DNA from: Pseudooceanicola sp. HF7
GTDB lineage: Bacteria; Pseudomonadota; Alphaproteobacteria; Rhodobacterales; Rhodobacteraceae
DNA: 64,000 nucleotides
Reading direction: 5' to 3'
Assembly (NCBI RefSeq): GCF_011806405.1
Contig: NZ_JAATOW010000009.1
Location: 1-64,000 of the forward strand
Below the pieces are notes generated by a model. The model worked only from the letters and a program-made list of their open reading frames with translations. It was not told where the DNA came from and ran no database searches. Positions 44,805 through 55,543 of this stretch are shown piece by piece; the first letter of the stretch is position 1, and every line of letters begins with the position of its first letter. The translations under genes and the position numbers were made by a program.

Positions 44805-46018
44805 TGGACGGCTCCAAGGGTTTCGAAGACGCTCAGACGGGCGAACAGTCGATCCGTAACTTCAACATCAACTTCGGCCCACAGCACCCTGCGGCGCACG
44901 GGGTGCTTCGGCTTGTGCTGGAGCTTGACGGCGAGATCGTCGAGCGCTGCGATCCGCATATCGGGCTGCTTCACCGCGGCACCGAGAAGCTGATGGAAAG
45001 CAGGACCTACCTGCAGAACCTGCCGTATCTCGACCGCCTCGACTACGTGGCGCCGATGAACCAGGAACATGCCTGGTGCCTGGCGATCGAAAAGCTGACC
45101 GGCGTGGAAGTGCCCCGCCGCGCGTCCCTGATCCGTGTTCTCTATTGCGAGATCGGGCGGGTGATGAACCACCTGATGAACGTCTGCACCCAGGCCATGG
45201 ACGTCGGCGCGCTGACCCCGCCGCTCTGGGGCTTCGAGCATCGTGAAACGCTGATGATCTTCTGCGAACGTGCCAGCGGCGCGCGTCTGCACTCGGCCTA
45301 CTTCCGTCCCGGCGGCGTTCACCAGGATCTGACCGACAAGCTGATCGACGACATCGAGGAATGGGCGATCAGTTTCCCCGAGTTCCTGGATGACCTCTCC
45401 GAACTGCTGACGGAGAACCGGATCTTCAAGCAGCGGAACGTGGACATCGGTGTCGTCTCAGAAGAGGAAATCCAGCAATGGGGCTTCTCTGGCGTGATGG
45501 CACGCGGCTCCGGCCTGGCCTGGGACCTGCGTCGGGCGCAGCCCTACGAGTGCTACGACGAGTTCGATTTCCAGATCCCCGTGGGCAAGAATGGCGATTG
45601 CTACGACCGTTACCTCTGTCGCATGGCGGAGATGCGCGAAAGCACGAAGATCATCCGCCAGGCCATCGTTAAGCTGCGGGAATACCCCGGCGAGGTGCTG
45701 GCACGGGGCAAGATCACGCCGCCGAAGCGCGCTGACATGAAGACCTCCATGGAAGCGCTGATCCACCACTTCAAGCTCTACACCGAGGGCTTCCACGTCC
45801 CCGAGGGCGAGGTTTACGCAGCCGTCGAGGCGCCGAAAGGCGAATTCGGCGTCTACCTTGTGGCGGATGGTACGAACAAGCCTTACCGCGCCAAGCTGCG
45901 CGCACCAGGCTACCTGCACCTGCAGGCGATGGATCACGTGGCCTCCGGTCACCAGCTGGCCGATATCGCCGCGATCATCGGCACGATGGACATCGTTTTC
46001 GGCGAGGTGGACCGATGA
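44804..46018 (+). CDS. nuoD: NADH-quinone oxidoreductase subunit D
   Basis: NuoD (49-kDa type, 404 residues) forms most of the quinone pocket with Nuo[21 protein letters not shown] near the N-terminus carries the quinone-contact histidine. Further marks are [20 protein letters not shown] and the C-terminal DIVFGEVDR. The start is coupled to nuoC by a TAATG overlap. The final codons overlap a lipoprotein gene. Confidence 0.98.
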
Positions 46019-46326
46019 GAATCCTAAGCCGGACCCCGATCCGCCACGGCCTGACCGCCGCCATGCCGCTTGCGCTGGTGGCCGCCTGTGCCGTGCCACC
46101 CTCTGACGTGACCCCGCAGCAATCGGCCAACTTCGACGCGGCCGTCGCCTCCATCGGATGTGAGCTGCGCACGGAACGCGATTACCTGCCGGTGGAATTG
46201 CAGACGGGCATGACCCGCGATCAGGTCATTGCCATGGCGCAGTACCGGATGGCGATGAACATGGCGGTCGGATCGGAAGATGGCGCGGTGCGCCTGACCA
46301 CTGGCCCCTGCGCCCCATCGGCGTGA
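46015..46326 (+). CDS. Small lipoprotein inside the nuo operon (between nuoD and nuoE)
   Basis: A 103-residue predicted lipoprotein. The ATG overlaps the nuoD stop by four bases. The signal [20 protein letters not shown] ends in a lipobox LVAAC with C25. The mature domain includes [20 protein letters not shown] and ends GPCAPSA, so two further cysteines could be bridged. It is not a known complex I subunit. A role in assembly or in the periplasmic face of the complex is suggested only by position. Confidence 0.75.
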
Positions 46327-47307: not shown

Positions 47308-47904
47308 ATGACGGGAACCATTGATATCTGCAGGAACACCTGCCTCGGGCTTGGCCTGGTGATGGCGGTTGCCTTCACCGTGGCCTTCTCGGGGGCGATG
47401 CCGTTCCTGCTGGCGTTGGTTCCGGCGTTTGTCCTGTCCGCGGTGGCTTGCCTGGTTCTGCTGCGCCTGGTGTGCGGCGGGGGCGGCGGCGGCAAAGGGC
47501 CGGTGCAGGGCGTCAGCTTCCAGGCCCCGGATGCCGTGCACACGCCGGTGGGAGAACCGGCGCCGGGCACAAGCCTGCCGAAGCAACCCGCGGCGAAGAC
47601 GCCTGCGGCAGAGGCCCCTGAAAAGCAGGCTCCTGCGACAAAGACCAAGGCAAAGAAGCCGGCGGCGAAGAAGAAGGCGGCGAAAGCCAAGGCGGATGAC
47701 CTGACGCAGATCAAGGGGCTGGGACCGCGGTTCCAGAAGACCCTGAATGCCGGTGGCATCCTGAGTTTCGCTCAGCTGGCAAGGCTGGACGAGGCCGCCC
47801 TGGACAAGCTCGATGCGGATCGGCCGGGCCTCAAGGCGCGTGCGCTGAAAGAAGACTGGGCCGGCCAGGCGAAGACGTATGACAAAGACGGTGCAGGGGA
47901 ATGA
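47308..47904 (+). CDS. Membrane-anchored helix-hairpin-helix protein in nuo operon
   Basis: A 198-residue protein with two hydrophobic helices at the N-terminus (LGLVMAVAFTVAFSGAMPFL and LVPAFVLSAVACLVLLRLVC), a Gly-rich then Lys/Ala/Pro-rich linker (KTKAKKPAAKKKAAKAKADD) and a C-terminal helix-hairpin-helix-like domain (DLTQIKGLGPRFQKTLNAGG, then ILSFAQLARLD). Similar domains appear fused to NuoE in other Rhodobacterales and to ribosomal protein L21 in alphaproteobacteria. It may tether or recruit the NADH module, but no function is established. It overlaps the DUF5337 gene by four bases. Confidence 0.85.
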   Translation: MTGTIDICRNTCLGLGLVMAVAFTVAFSGAMPFLLALVPAFVLSAVACLVLLRLVCGGGGGGKGPVQGVSFQAPDAVHTPVGEPAPGTSLPKQPAAKTPAAEAPEKQAPATKTKAKKPAAKKKAAKAKADDLTQIKGLGPRFQKTLNAGGILSFAQLARLDEAALDKLDADRPGLKARALKEDWAGQAKTYDKDGAGE

Positions 47905-48143: not shown

Positions 48144-49442
48144 ATGCTCAAGGACGAAGATCGCATCTTTACCAACCTCTACGGCATGCATGACCGGTCG
48201 CTGAAAGGCGCCCAGGCGCGCGGTCACTGGGACGGTACCAAAGGCATTCTTGAGAAGGGCCGGGACTGGATTGTCGACCAGATGAAGGCCTCTGGCCTGC
48301 GGGGTCGTGGCGGGGCAGGGTTCCCGACTGGCCTCAAGTGGTCCTTCATGCCCAAGGGCGATGATGGCCGGCCGCATTACCTGGTCATCAACGCCGATGA
48401 ATCCGAACCCGCGACCTGCAAGGACCGCGAAATCATGCGCCACGATCCGCATACGCTGATCGAGGGCGCCCTGATCGCCTCCTTCGCCATGGGCGCGCAT
48501 GCCTGCTACATCTACATTCGCGGCGAATACATCCGCGAGAAGGAAGCGCTGCAGGCCGCGATCGACGAAGCCTATGACGCTGGCCTGATCGGGCGGAACG
48601 CCTGTGGCTCGGGCTGGGATTTCGATCTCTACCTGCACCACGGCGCGGGCGCCTATATCTGTGGCGAGGAAACCGCCCTGATCGAAAGCCTAGAAGGCAA
48701 GAAGGGCATGCCCCGGATGAAGCCGCCGTTCCCGGCTGGTGCCGGCCTTTATGGCTGCCCGACTACGGTGAACAACGTCGAATCCATTGCCGTCTGCCCG
48801 ACCATCCTGCGCCGCGGCCCGGAATGGTTCAGCTCCTTCGGCCGTCCGAACAACGCTGGCACCAAGCTGATGGCGCTGACCGGCCACGTGAACACCCCCT
48901 GCGTCTTCGAAGAAAGCATGTCGCTTTCCGTGCGCGAGATCATCGAACACCACGGCGGCGGCATTCGCGGCGGCTGGGACAACCTCAAGGCCATCATCCC
49001 CGGCGGGGCGTCCTGCCCGGTGCTGCCCAAGTCCCAGCTGGAAGACGCGATCTTCGATTTCGACTGGATGCGCGAGAACAAGTCCTCCTTCGGCACCGGC
49101 TGCATGATCGTCATGGATAACTCCGTCGACGTCGTGAAGGCCGTCTGGCGCCTGAGCAAATTCTTCAAGCACGAGAGCTGCGGCCAGTGCACGCCCTGCC
49201 GCGAAGGTACGGGCTGGATGATGCGCGTCATGGATCGCCTCGTGACCGGCGAAGCCGAGGTCGAGGAAATCGACATGCTGCTGGACGTGACCAAGCAGGT
49301 TGAGGGTCACACGATCTGTGCGCTTGGTGATGCGGCGGCCTGGCCGATCCAGGGCCTGATCCGTCACTTCCGTGATGAGATCGAGGACCGGATCAAGAAA
49401 CAGAAGACCGGCCGCTCCACCACCATTCTGGCGGCAGAGTGA
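48144..49442 (+). CDS. nuoF: NADH-quinone oxidoreductase subunit F
   Basis: NuoF (51-kDa type, 432 residues) binds NADH, FMN and [4Fe-4S] cluster N3. The NADH/FMN loop is [20 protein letters not shown] (about 53-72); the FMN region [20 protein letters not shown] follows; and the cluster ligands are in [16 protein letters not shown], plus a Cys in [11 protein letters not shown]. It is encoded three bases after DUF5337, and its stop overlaps a lipoprotein GTG start. Confidence 0.98.
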
Positions 49443-49813
49443 TCGTGAGCACCTTCCTTCCTCATATCTCGCTGCGGTCGGCGGCCCTGGCCGGGCTTGC
49501 CGCCCTGGCGCTTGCGGGCTGTGACAGCCTGCGTCGCGACCGGGGGGACCCCGCGTTTGACGGCGTCTATTTCGCAGCCAATCTCAGTGCCGATGAAACC
49601 AATCCGCACAATTTCACCATCGCGGTGAAGGATGCCCGCAAGAGCCTTGTCGGCGCGCGGGAAGCCGGGCGTTACGAGGCCAACAAGTACTGCATCAAGT
49701 ACTACGGCAACTCGGAAAAGACCTGGACCCTGGGCCCGGATGCCACCGACCCGCAGCTTGTCTTCTCCGACAAGGGCGACCTTCTGATGAGCGGAAGTTG
49801 CGTCGGATGGTAA
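49439..49813 (+). CDS. Small lipoprotein inside the nuo operon (after nuoF)
   Basis: A 124-residue predicted lipoprotein with a GTG start overlapping the nuoF stop. The signal has a clear lipobox, LALAGC with C28. The mature part carries [40 protein letters not shown] and a C-terminal GSCVGW, with a likely disulfide between the last two cysteines. I do not recognise a family. Two strong hairpins separate it from the DUF5333 gene. Confidence 0.75.
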
Positions 49814-49974: not shown

Positions 49975-50406
49975 ATGACAGTACTGAAATCGACCCGCAT
50001 CGCCCGCCGCGTGATGGCCGTCTGCGTGACGGCCCTGGTTGCCACGGCTTCCGTGGCGCAGGCGCGCCAGCCCCTGAGCCAGGTCGAGGAAATCGACCAG
50101 AACATGCTCTGGGTTGCCATTGCCGCGGAAATCGGCGAGCGCTGCTCTTCGATCGACGCGCGGATGGTCAAGGGCCTTCTCTTTCTCAACCAGCTGCGCA
50201 ACGACGCGCTGGCCATGGGCTATACCACGGAAGAGATCGAGGAGTACGCCACCGCTGACGAAGAGCGCGTGCGCTGGCGCGAGCTGGGCGAAAATTATGC
50301 GAAATCCCTCGGATTGAATCCGGACGACACGGCGGACCTGTGCAAGCTCGGTGAGCTTGAAATTGCGCGCAGCAGCCAGATCGGCGTCCTGCTGAAAGAA
50401 AAGTGA
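49975..50406 (+). CDS. DUF5333 exported protein in nuo operon
   Basis: A 143-residue protein from ATG 49975 with a cleavable signal peptide (RRVMAVCVTALVATASVAQA). The mature, mostly helical domain matches DUF5333: PLSQVEEIDQNMLWVAIAAE, CSSIDARMVKGLLFLNQLRN, then YTTEEIEEY, with cysteines at GERC and LCKLGE. DUF5333 genes recur next to nuoG in Rhodobacterales. The predicted periplasmic location is odd for a complex I partner, since the periplasmic surface of the enzyme is small. A frame extending to 49798 is rejected because it lacks a signal and crosses the hairpins. Confidence 0.85.
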   Translation: MTVLKSTRIARRVMAVCVTALVATASVAQARQPLSQVEEIDQNMLWVAIAAEIGERCSSIDARMVKGLLFLNQLRNDALAMGYTTEEIEEYATADEERVRWRELGENYAKSLGLNPDDTADLCKLGELEIARSSQIGVLLKEK

Positions 50407-52428: not shown

Positions 52429-52769
52429 CCGGAGCGAAGATCATATGGGCCAGTGCCGACCGGCGGCAGGGCCGTCGCCCGGCCGCCCGGTCCGGCGCGG
52501 TCCGGACCCGGCGTCCTGTCGGATACGGAATTGAAATGCACGTGAAAAACCCGGTTTGCGCAGCGTTGCAGGGCAGGGTCTTTCGTGGCAACGGATTTGC
52601 AAGACATCTGCACACAAATGTCTCTGAACGCACTGGTCACCGGCAGGCAGATGCGGTTTATACCGTCTCGCAAGCCCGGCTGGCGGGCGCGAAGATCAAC
52701 GATGCAGAAGTCGTCGTCGCGCCGCTGCGCGCGGAACGGAATACCGACGGTGTGAGGACATATGGCTGA
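52425..52769 (+). CDS. Possible small ORF between nuoG and nuoH (uncertain)
   Basis: An open frame of 114 codons that begins with an ATGA overlap with nuoG and ends 8 bases inside nuoH, geometry expected of a translationally coupled gene. The product is basic and cysteine-poor ([20 protein letters not shown] at the start; [20 protein letters not shown] near the end), with no signal, helix pattern or known domain. Third-position G/C is clearly lower in the middle than in the nuo genes. It may be a lineage-specific protein or merely an intercistronic spacer that happens to be open. Confidence 0.35.
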
Positions 52770-53802
52770 TTTCTTTACCTCCAACCCGCTAGGCATCCTG
52801 CTGCTGATCATCGGCCAGATCCTTCTGATCGTGGTGCCGCTGCTGGTGTGCCTTGCCTTCCTCCTTTACGGTGACCGCAAGATCTGGGCGGCTGTCCAGC
52901 TGCGTCGCGGGCCGAACGTGGTGGGCTTCTTCGGGCTGCTGCAAAGTTTTGCCGACTTCCTGAAGTACATCACCAAGGAAGTGGTGATCCCGGCGGGCGC
53001 TGACAAGTTCGTCTTCCTGCTGGCGCCGATGCTCAGCTTCGTGCTGGCGATGATCGCCTGGGCCGTGATCCCCTTCAACGAAGGCTGGGTGCTGGCAGAT
53101 ATCAACGTCGCCATCCTCTATGTCTTCGCGATCTCCTCGCTTGAGGTCTACGGCGTGATCATGGGGGGCTGGGCGTCCAACTCCAAGTATCCGTTCCTTG
53201 GTTCGCTGCGCTCCGCTGCACAGATGATTTCCTACGAGGTCTCGATCGGCCTGATCATCATCGGCGTGATCATCTCCACCGGGTCGATGAACTTCTCCGA
53301 TATCGTGCGGGCTCAGGACGGCGGTTATGGCCTGTTCTCGTGGTACTGGCTGCCGCACTTCCCGATGGTCTTCCTGTTCCTGATCTCTGCCCTGGCAGAG
53401 ACCAACCGCCCGCCCTTCGACCTTCCCGAAGCGGAATCCGAACTGGTGGCCGGTTACCAGGTTGAATACAGCTCCACGCCCTTCCTGCTCTTCATGATCG
53501 GGGAATACGTGGCCATCGTTTTGATGTGCGCGCTGATGACCCTGCTGTTCTTCGGCGGCTGGCTATCCCCGATCCCGGGTCTGCCCGATGGCTTCCTGTG
53601 GTTCTTCGCCAAGGCGCTCATGGTCTTCTTCGTCTTCGCCATGGTGAAGGCCGTCGTGCCCCGCTACCGCTACGACCAGCTCATGCGGATCGGCTGGAAG
53701 GTTTTCCTTCCCATGTCGCTGATCTGGGTGGTCCTGGTTGCCTTCCTTGCCAAGTTCGAACTTTTCGGCGGTGCCTATGCCCGCTGGATGATCGGAGGCT
53801 GA
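52762..53802 (+). CDS. nuoH: NADH-quinone oxidoreductase subunit H
   Basis: NuoH (ND1 type, 346 residues, about eight helices) connects the quinone site to the membrane arm. The marks are [20 protein letters not shown] (about 34-53), [20 protein letters not shown] and [20 protein letters not shown], the acidic loop E-x-ETNR-PFDL. The ATG at 52762 has TGAGGA just upstream. GGAGG before the stop serves the next gene. Confidence 0.97.
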
Positions 53803-53805
53803 TCC

Positions 53806-54570
53806 TTGGGTATCGACTACGTTCTGTTCGACAGGCTCTGCGAGCTGTCATCACGCTTCCGGCCGGAAGGCCGGAGCCTGATGCTTGGCCGCCAGGGTTT
53901 CTCGATCCAGAGCAAGTTCGCGAAGCGCTACGAAAGTTCCCTGGCCCAGCATGGGCTGGAGGGGCGGCGCTTCGACTACCTGCAAGAGGACGGTTTCTGC
54001 GAGACGCTGATGCGCAAGCTCGGCTTTGGCGAGATCGAGACGATGGACTTTTCCGATTACGAGGGCGCGGCGATCCTGCAGGATCTGAACCGCCCCGTTC
54101 CGGCGCAGCTAGAAAACCAGTTCGGCTTCATCTTCGACGGTGGCACGATCGAACATGTCTTCAATGTGCCGCAGGCGCTTGAGAACCTGTTCAAGATGCT
54201 GAAGCCGGGCGGTCGCCTGGTCTCTGCCAACGGGATGAACGGATGGATGGGGCACGGGTTCTACCAGTTCAATCCGGAACTGGTCTGGACCTTCTGGCGC
54301 CGGATGGCGCACTGCAACCTGGTCGACTGCCGCGCGATCAAGAAGACGCCGCTGCCGGAACCGCAGCACATGGCCCTGCCGGATCCGGCAGAGACGGGAC
54401 ACCGCCTGCGCTTCAAGGAGAATTTCCCTGAAGGCCAAGTCTACCTCTACTACGAGGTGGAAAAGACGACCGAGGCACGCCTCGGGGATATTGCGCTGCA
54501 AAGCGATTACGAAACGACTTGGGCATCGCATGGCAAGGCCGGCGAGACCAACCTGGGAATTGGAGGATAG
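53806..54570 (+). CDS. Methyltransferase-like protein inside the nuo operon
   Basis: A 254-residue soluble protein read from a TTG at 53806; GGAGG seven bases upstream and the 3-base gap after nuoH support this start. The fold looks like a class-I SAM methyltransferase: [20 protein letters not shown] (motif II/post-I region) and [20 protein letters not shown] (motif III). However the canonical glycine-rich motif I (GxGxG) is absent; in its place the N-terminus has [20 protein letters not shown]. Its end supplies the nuoI ribosome-binding site. By position it could modify or help assemble complex I, as NDUFAF5/7 do in mitochondria; this is inference. Confidence 0.75.
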
Positions 54571-54574
54571 CCTC

Positions 54575-55069
54575 ATGGCCAGCGTCGACTATACCCGCGC
54601 CGCCAAATACTTCCTGCTCTTTGACATGTTCAAAGGGTTCAAGATGGGGCTGAAGTACTTCTTCAAGCCGAAGGCAACGCTGAACTACCCGCACGAAAAG
54701 GGGCCCCTGTCGCCCCGTTTCCGCGGTGAACACGCGCTGCGCCGCTATCCCAACGGGGAAGAGCGCTGCATCGCCTGCAAGCTGTGCGAAGCGATCTGCC
54801 CGGCGCAGGCCATCACCATCGATGCCGAACCGCGCGAAGACGGCAGCCGCCGCACCACGCGCTACGACATCGACATGACCAAGTGCATCTACTGCGGCTT
54901 CTGCCAGGAAGCCTGCCCGGTGGACGCGATCGTCGAGGGGCCGAACTTCGAATTCGCCACCGAGACCCGCGAAGAGCTGTTCTACGACAAGCAGAAGCTG
55001 CTGGATAACGGCGAACGCTGGGAAGCAGAGATCGCGCGCAACCTCGAGCTGGATGCGCCCTACCGATGA
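54575..55069 (+). CDS. nuoI: NADH-quinone oxidoreductase subunit I
   Basis: NuoI (TYKY type) carries clusters N6a and N6b. The ATG at 54575 gives 164 residues; GGAGGA lies inside the end of the preceding gene. The two ferredoxin motifs are complete: C65-C68-C71-C75 ([15 protein letters not shown]) and C104-C107-C110-C114 ([15 protein letters not shown]). The N-terminal amphipathic helices ([19 protein letters not shown]) seat it on the membrane arm. Confidence 0.98.
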
Positions 55070-55135
55070 AACTCGTGCTTCGCCATATCCGGGCACGCGG
55101 CGCCGATGAGGGTCTTCGGACCGGGGGAGGTCACC

Positions 55136-55543
55136 ATGGCTGATCCCCTGAATCCGTTCGAGTATTTCATCCAGCAGGCGCAGGACATGGCCAAGTCGAT
55201 GAATCCGGCGCTGGAGAACTTCAATCCCAAGGGGTTCGAGGCGCTCTGGCCGACGATGCCGAAGGAGTGGATGGAATTCACCTTCGGCAAGAGCTTCAAC
55301 CGCGACGGCCTGGACAGCAAGACCCGGCTGATGCTGGTGCTGGCCGGTCTGACGATGCAAGGCGCGCAGGCGGACAGCCAGTTGCGCATCACGGTGCGCC
55401 ACCTCCTTGAGGCGGGCGCCAAGAAACAGGAAATCGCCGAGGCCATCGCACAGATGTCGATGTTCGCCGGTATACCCGCCATGACCCGAGCCGCTGCGCT
55501 TGCCAAGGAGGTCATGGACGAACAAGAGGATGATGAGACATGA
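55136..55543 (+). CDS. Carboxymuconolactone-decarboxylase-like protein inside nuo operon
   Basis: A 135-residue all-helical protein with CMD/AhpD-like pattern: [40 protein letters not shown] and [20 protein letters not shown]. It has no cysteine, so the peroxidatic CxxC of AhpD is missing; the single histidine in VRHLLEAG matches the conserved decarboxylase-family His. Within nuo it is unlikely to be a catabolic decarboxylase. The start ATG 55136 follows GGGGGAGG; nuoJ begins inside its last codon. Confidence 0.82.

Follow-up and report, generated by a model that had tools for sequence, protein, structure and literature searches.

Between nuoH and nuoI, the window (the whole 64,000-nucleotide stretch of Pseudooceanicola sp. 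HF7 DNA analysed here) carries a methyltransferase-type gene. With a likelihood a little above even, the gene encodes an active methyltransferase of the glycan type and travels in nuo as a captured, co-expressed passenger. The case draws on the gene's placement, its predicted fold and family signature, purifying selection, the glycan setting of many relatives and a patchy distribution. Relatives elsewhere often lie beside sugar-transfer genes, which makes a passenger more likely than a complex I assembly factor. The proposed course of events is as follows. (i) The gene would encode an active, cytoplasmic class I SAM methyltransferase, for which SAM binding and catalysis are presumed. (ii) The enzyme would belong to an uncharacterised family that has LGRQ and about 32 extra residues instead of the GxGxG cofactor loop. 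(iii) One frequent setting of this family appears to be glycan (surface polysaccharide) biosynthesis. (iv) The enzyme would most likely O-methylate a sugar or a sugar-bearing intermediate. (v) In a large branch of the Rhodobacterales the gene was probably captured between nuoH and nuoI. (vi) There the end of nuoH would serve as its ribosome site, and the gene in turn would supply that of nuoI; these shared sites suggest a translation-coupled passenger, co-expressed with complex I, on which it need not act.

The features of the region are as follows.

52762..53802, + strand: nuoH, upstream neighbour
53794..53798, + strand: ribosome-binding site GGAGG of the methyltransferase gene, within the last codons of nuoH
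53806..54570, + strand: methyltransferase-type gene of the LGRQ family, 254 aa, class I fold predicted, between nuoH and nuoI
53884..53895, + strand: codons for L27-G28-R29-Q30, the family signature at motif I
53896..53994, + strand: residues 31–63, the zone of about 32 extra residues from motif I to motif II
54046..54048, + strand: D81, the invariant acid that ends strand 2, at the motif II position
54136..54156, + strand: DGGTIEH, residues 111–117, motif IV region; D111, G113, E116 and H117 invariant (76/76 rows)
54253..54267, + strand: HGFYQ, H150 to Q154; H150 and Q154 invariant (76/76 rows)
54562..54566, + strand: ribosome-binding site GGAGG of nuoI, within the last codons of the methyltransferase gene
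54575..55069, + strand: nuoI, downstream neighbour, with 4Fe-4S motifs

The open reading frame at 53806–54570 is a real gene. It comprises 254 codons and starts with TTG, three bases past the nuoH stop codon (TGA, 53800–53802) and a 7-base spacer downstream of GGAGG at 53794–53798. An M-G-[IV] opening falls at the same position in nearly all relatives, in agreement with the TTG start. The ATG of nuoI at 54575 is preceded by GGAGG at 54562–54566. The coordinates thus confirm what the sequence-only reading had claimed for the TTG start, its GGAGG, the 3-base gap and the supply of the nuoI ribosome site; the tight coupling to both neighbours that it described recurs in dozens of species. Among 61 nuo-embedded relatives the start codon, taken as the codon where the match to residue 1 falls, is ATG in 37, TTG in 17 and GTG in 7. 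A Shine-Dalgarno-like 4-mer lies within 16 bases upstream in 59 of the 61, scored from a loose list with no shuffled control. Purifying selection is evident in ten pairs of nuo-embedded copies, deliberately chosen as close pairs: dN/dS of the methyltransferase is 0.037–0.264 in all ten, and exceeds that of nuoH in eight.

By sequence, the resemblance to methyltransferases is real but weak. Profile searches against the Methyltransf families, suggested with the sequence-only reading, gave a borderline match to Methyltransf_23 (PF13489), at residues 67–179 only and exactly at the Pfam cut-off of 27 (27.0 bits, E 4.1e-6). Scores for Methyltransf_12 and Methyltransf_11 fell below their own cut-offs. 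Methyltransf_23 is matched by 19 of 26 family members (E 0.001). Solved structures searched by sequence yielded weak matches, those to methyltransferases being short and over motif IV, and an hhalign comparison with three of the genome's own canonical methyltransferases aligned residues 104–140 only, at a probability of 77%. The predicted structure is far clearer. An AlphaFold2 model of the protein without a partner, built with 76 family members in the alignment, has a pLDDT of 93.2 and a pTM of 0.90, and its predicted fold is that of a class I (seven-strand Rossmann) methyltransferase. Its best VIA match (Z 14.7, rmsd 2.5, 159 residues, 13% identity; rows within 1 of this Z count as tied) is JHAMT, a juvenile hormone acid methyltransferase, with SAH, and Z is at least 8 in 888 of 1000 aligned chains. 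With Foldseek, 183 solved chains reach E 0.001 or better. Nearly every one of the 50 rows shown is a methyltransferase or another enzyme with that fold; their TM-scores are low (0.23–0.41 by query length), which differing loops and extra segments would explain. The predicted fold therefore bears out the earlier description of a SAM-methyltransferase-like protein, which its sequence match at the Methyltransf_23 cut-off conveys weakly. Shared with Methyltransf_23, Methyltransf_11 and Methyltransf_12 are the predicted fold, the motif II acid, EH after strand 4 and LKPGG before strand 5; the protein differs from them in having LGRQ where they have [DE]xGxGxG.

The settings of relatives outside nuo point towards glycans. 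The nearest relatives were taken as the best 80 of 393 in named genome contigs, ranked by likeness to the protein: 61 of them sit between nuoH and nuoI, 2 are at a contig edge with nuoI as their one nuo neighbour, and 17 are elsewhere. At 12 of these 17 non-nuo loci there is a relative of a Glyco_tranf_2_4 protein (E 1e-5). A second recurring neighbour and a third, sulfotransferase-like by eye, occur at nine of the 17 each, both with no Pfam match at E 1e-5, and a fourth occurs at six. At least one of the four is present at 13 of the 17 loci, and none at L124, L128, L136 and L139. When 68 hand-picked neighbours at non-nuo loci, from reading frames called by a simple script, were compared with Pfam, 16 matched Glyco_tranf_2_4, 10 Glyco_transf_92 and 2 FkbM (the first two families overlap on one protein, and their counts are not additive). 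Single matches were to sulfotransferase, epimerase, UDP-glucose dehydrogenase and TylF families, and unrelated families, such as proline dehydrogenase and sulfate permease, were also present. In the viral collection, where seven of 12 loci were examined, 41 neighbours included Epimerase (8), RmlD (8), GDP_Man_Dehyd (7) and several glycosyltransferases. The phage collection held no match to the methyltransferase; the plasmid collection held seven matching records, of which two were examined. The Bradyrhizobium plasmid homologue, the class I SAM-dependent methyltransferase WGR90767.1 (31.6% identity across 89% of the query), sits not in nuo but in an annotated polysaccharide region, together with glycosyltransferases, galE, an ABC exporter, an FkbM methyltransferase and an O-antigen ligase. 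On an Azospirillum plasmid, the homologue has radical SAM, carbamoyltransferase and other genes around it, a setting that is not clearly glycan.

This evidence has its counterweight. The copy in the window is not near glycan genes, nuo-embedded copies are flanked by nuo genes rather than glycan genes, and five of the 17 non-nuo loci are without the glycosyltransferase relative. Those five include L124 and L128; a neighbour at L128 carries an FkbM domain. In addition, placement in nuo is kept across many genera, down to 39% protein identity among the best 80 of 393 relatives, and this could reflect selection for co-expression with complex I. The genera of the nuo set include Roseovarius, Litoreibacter, Gemmobacter, Tabrizicola, Leisingera, Jannaschia, Cognatishimia and Octadecabacter. 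The idea that the gene is unique to its own genome is rejected by its relatives in many others. The sequence-only reading had allowed that it would be refuted if homologues lay mainly in glycan or unrelated clusters and placement in nuo were confined to this genome; the latter part does not hold, since 61 of the 80 relatives are flanked by both genes.

The distribution of the gene is patchy. It is present as a single copy in its own genome. Among 295 genomes drawn from the family, 31 (the window's own included) have a match at E 0.001 or better, 26 of them strong and 5 weak and partial, and none has two. Of the 26 strong matches, 17 lie in nuo (16 directly after nuoH, one at a contig edge with nuoI adjoining) and 9 elsewhere. 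Since nuoH is matched in 284 of the 295 genomes (E 1e-60), most sampled complex I operons are without the gene. It was not found in the only sampled species of the same genus (L032), in which nuoI directly follows nuoH. In a class-wide profile search, none of the 26 matches other than the window's own showed NuoH or NuoI in 1.5 kb flanks.

In a quick tree of 95 proteins, with five short or partial rows left out, 59 nuo-embedded genes form one starred group together with L124 and L128, which are nested in the nuo branch yet lie outside nuo. Four nuo-embedded genes (L117, L119, L121 and L130) stand apart, and this second branch may stem from a separate insertion event at that junction. The AU test does not reject a single clade uniting the 63 nuo rows (p 0.277, on a quick tree with eight short or partial rows left out), so that one insertion and two are both compatible with the data. 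Mapped onto a NuoH tree with 62 carriers and 56 non-carriers, presence of the gene requires 24 changes, at least 8 of them forced by starred branches. Carrier status is nonetheless clustered when set against shuffled labels (24 versus a mean of 39.4; none of 500 as low). The 24 changes indicate that repeated gain, loss or transfer has left the gene patchy. The NuoH of the window groups with two non-carriers (starred), and the methyltransferase of the window with Jannaschia and Roseovarius copies (support 88, not starred). Two pairs of loci show signs of recombination inside nuo: in L084/L087, dS is 0.98 for the methyltransferase, 0.35 for nuoH and 0.17 for a partial nuoI; in L090/L091, nuoH has the highest dN and dS.

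The nuoH–nuoI junction tolerates inserts, and this weakens any argument from position. Its contents had been proposed for survey, and the gene proves recurrent there. In 40 gene-less genomes, taken stepwise and non-randomly among the nuoH matches listed, the spacing is at most 15 bp in 29, 40–97 bp in 3 and 204–788 bp in 8. The 788 bp insert, at L184 (G125), holds an unrelated frame of 257 codons. Given that other DNA also enters this site, a translation-coupled position in nuo is not enough on its own to mark a gene as a complex I factor. The tolerant junction thus favours the passenger reading, as do the 12 of 17 non-nuo loci with glycosyltransferase relatives, the many family genomes in which the gene is missing, and L124 and L128.

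The main rival to the passenger reading is a lineage-specific complex I enzyme. In its general form, which is unlikely, the enzyme of carrier lineages would act during assembly on a residue in one of NuoH, NuoI, NuoB and NuoD, methylating it or, in the manner of NDUFAF5, hydroxylating it. The exact placement shared by 61 of the best 80 relatives, with two more at contig edges, the purifying selection on nuo-embedded copies and the possibility of two insertions at one site speak for it. Against it stand the junction's acceptance of other DNA, the glycosyltransferases near many relatives, and the gene's absence from the sampled same-genus species and from most sampled family genomes, which have nuoH. 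Residues that distinguish nuo-embedded copies vary with the grouping. Six positions (F8, L14, E78, I109, N145 and L159) are nuo-specific when 44 rows are compared with 19, and 5–8 at other thresholds, but none is when 48 rows are compared with 28; small subclades give 21–55, in groups of differing size, so that the test is weak either way. The invariant active-site positions are the same inside and outside nuo.

Known complex I factors offer limited parallels. NDUFAF7 has a methyltransferase fold and is linked to complex I. The protein resembles it in fold, but has no match to PF02636 (Methyltransf_28, NDUFAF7) at E up to 1, and a separate NDUFAF7-family gene, matching PF02636 at 198.6 bits, lies at C37:196424-197083 in the same genome; identity with NDUFAF7 is rejected on both grounds. 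NDUFAF5, according to PMC4938201, is a SAM-methyltransferase-related protein acting on a complex I subunit. The two proteins are alike by description, both being SAM-methyltransferase-related, but the same paper reports that the bacterial arginine equivalent to the NDUFAF5 target is conserved and not modified (PMC4938201), which counts against a complex I enzyme of this type. The sequence-only reading had proposed an assembly or modification factor for complex I. That proposal is not supported, given the glycosyltransferase neighbours, the many nuoH-bearing genomes without the gene, the tolerant junction and the separate NDUFAF7-family gene. A role in complex I is possible, the support for it being position and co-expression. 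More doubtful than the general form is a specific version, in which a glycan-derived enzyme with a rebuilt cofactor loop would have been recruited into nuo, perhaps twice at the same junction, and would, in some Rhodobacterales, modify a subunit close to the quinone site. If deletion of the gene affected complex I, bacteria would become a convenient system in which to study a recruited enzyme that modifies complex I. Among the matches listed for open PubMed Central text, no paper was found on a methyltransferase in nuo or on the LGRQ family.

The passenger reading supposes an active enzyme. A glycine-rich motif I, [DE]xGxGxG, is typical of class I methyltransferases, though not universal. The canonical pattern is absent from the protein, which has MLGRQ at motif I. 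The earlier observation that LMLGRQ replaces the glycine-rich motif was correct in detail, and the trait is common to the whole family. G28 is found in 76 of 76 aligned rows and R29 in 75; at position 30, 64 rows have Q, 11 have H and 1 has N. LGR[QH] is kept both in nuo and outside it, and decay of motif I confined to this genome is rejected. The ‘LGRQ methyltransferases’ are a grouping defined in this analysis, and the protein has all of its marks: LGR[QH], DGGT-EH, HG-YQ and a long interval from motif I to motif II. That interval, from G28 to D81, has a median of 53 residues (n = 76, range 43–61); it is 21–22 residues in three ordinary methyltransferases of the same genome. In the model, the extra stretch is predicted to form helices at 36–48 and 55–58, followed by a helix at 66–71, and the strand at 77–81 ends at D81, an acid at the motif II position in all 76 rows. 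Invariant throughout the 76 aligned members, nuo and non-nuo, are G28, G73, D81, D111, G113, E116, H117, H150, Q154, Q232 and Y235; D93 is nearly so, with N in two rows. To judge from this alignment, the family has rebuilt its cofactor loop and conserved the result. The invariance of D81, D111, G113, E116, H117, H150 and Q154 speaks for catalysis. Retention of motif II, DGGT-EH and HG-YQ, together with dN/dS of 0.04–0.26, makes it probable that the gene product is an active enzyme. The analysis delimits a methyltransferase family whose motif I is non-canonical yet conserved, and which makes a clear subject for structural work on how SAM might be held without GxGxG.

The same residues bear on the proposal that loss of GxGxG ended SAM binding and left a scaffold or chaperone. 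Replacement of the motif I acid and of the second and third glycines across the LGRQ family, with a long extra segment behind, is what such a pseudo-methyltransferase might display. A scaffold, however, need not keep D81, D111, E116, H117, H150 and Q154 invariant and D93 nearly so, and the altered loop is conserved and shows no drift, which together make this improbable. Highly improbable is a UbiG-like O-methyltransferase acting on a ubiquinone precursor or derivative and tied to complex I through its substrate: L223 of the same genome, UbiG-like by eye, does have a similar EH and H..QKF.TP pattern, but such patterns are common in methyltransferases, L223 already supplies the genome with a candidate, and the score of 10.8 bits against a UbiG (TIGR01983) equivalog cut-off of 102.95 rejects identity with UbiG.

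Other accessory frames accompany the methyltransferase in nuo, and older papers reportedly describe additional frames within the nuo clusters of Paracoccus and Rhodobacter capsulatus. Between nuoI and nuoJ, the window has a gene of the carboxymuconolactone decarboxylase family (55106–55543; Pfam CMD, E 4.9e-14), a relative of which occurs in 58 of 63 nuo-embedded loci. Short frames at 46015–46326 and 49439–49813 have no Pfam match, that at 47308–47904 has a weak helix-hairpin-helix match, and 49978–50406 encodes DUF5333 (E 1.4e-32). Many relatives have a conserved frame of about 130 aa between nuoG and nuoH, whose start looks lipoprotein-like by eye. The copy in the window (52429–52761) has an unrecognisable front half and changes frame at its end, so that it looks broken; that of the same-genus L032 looks intact.
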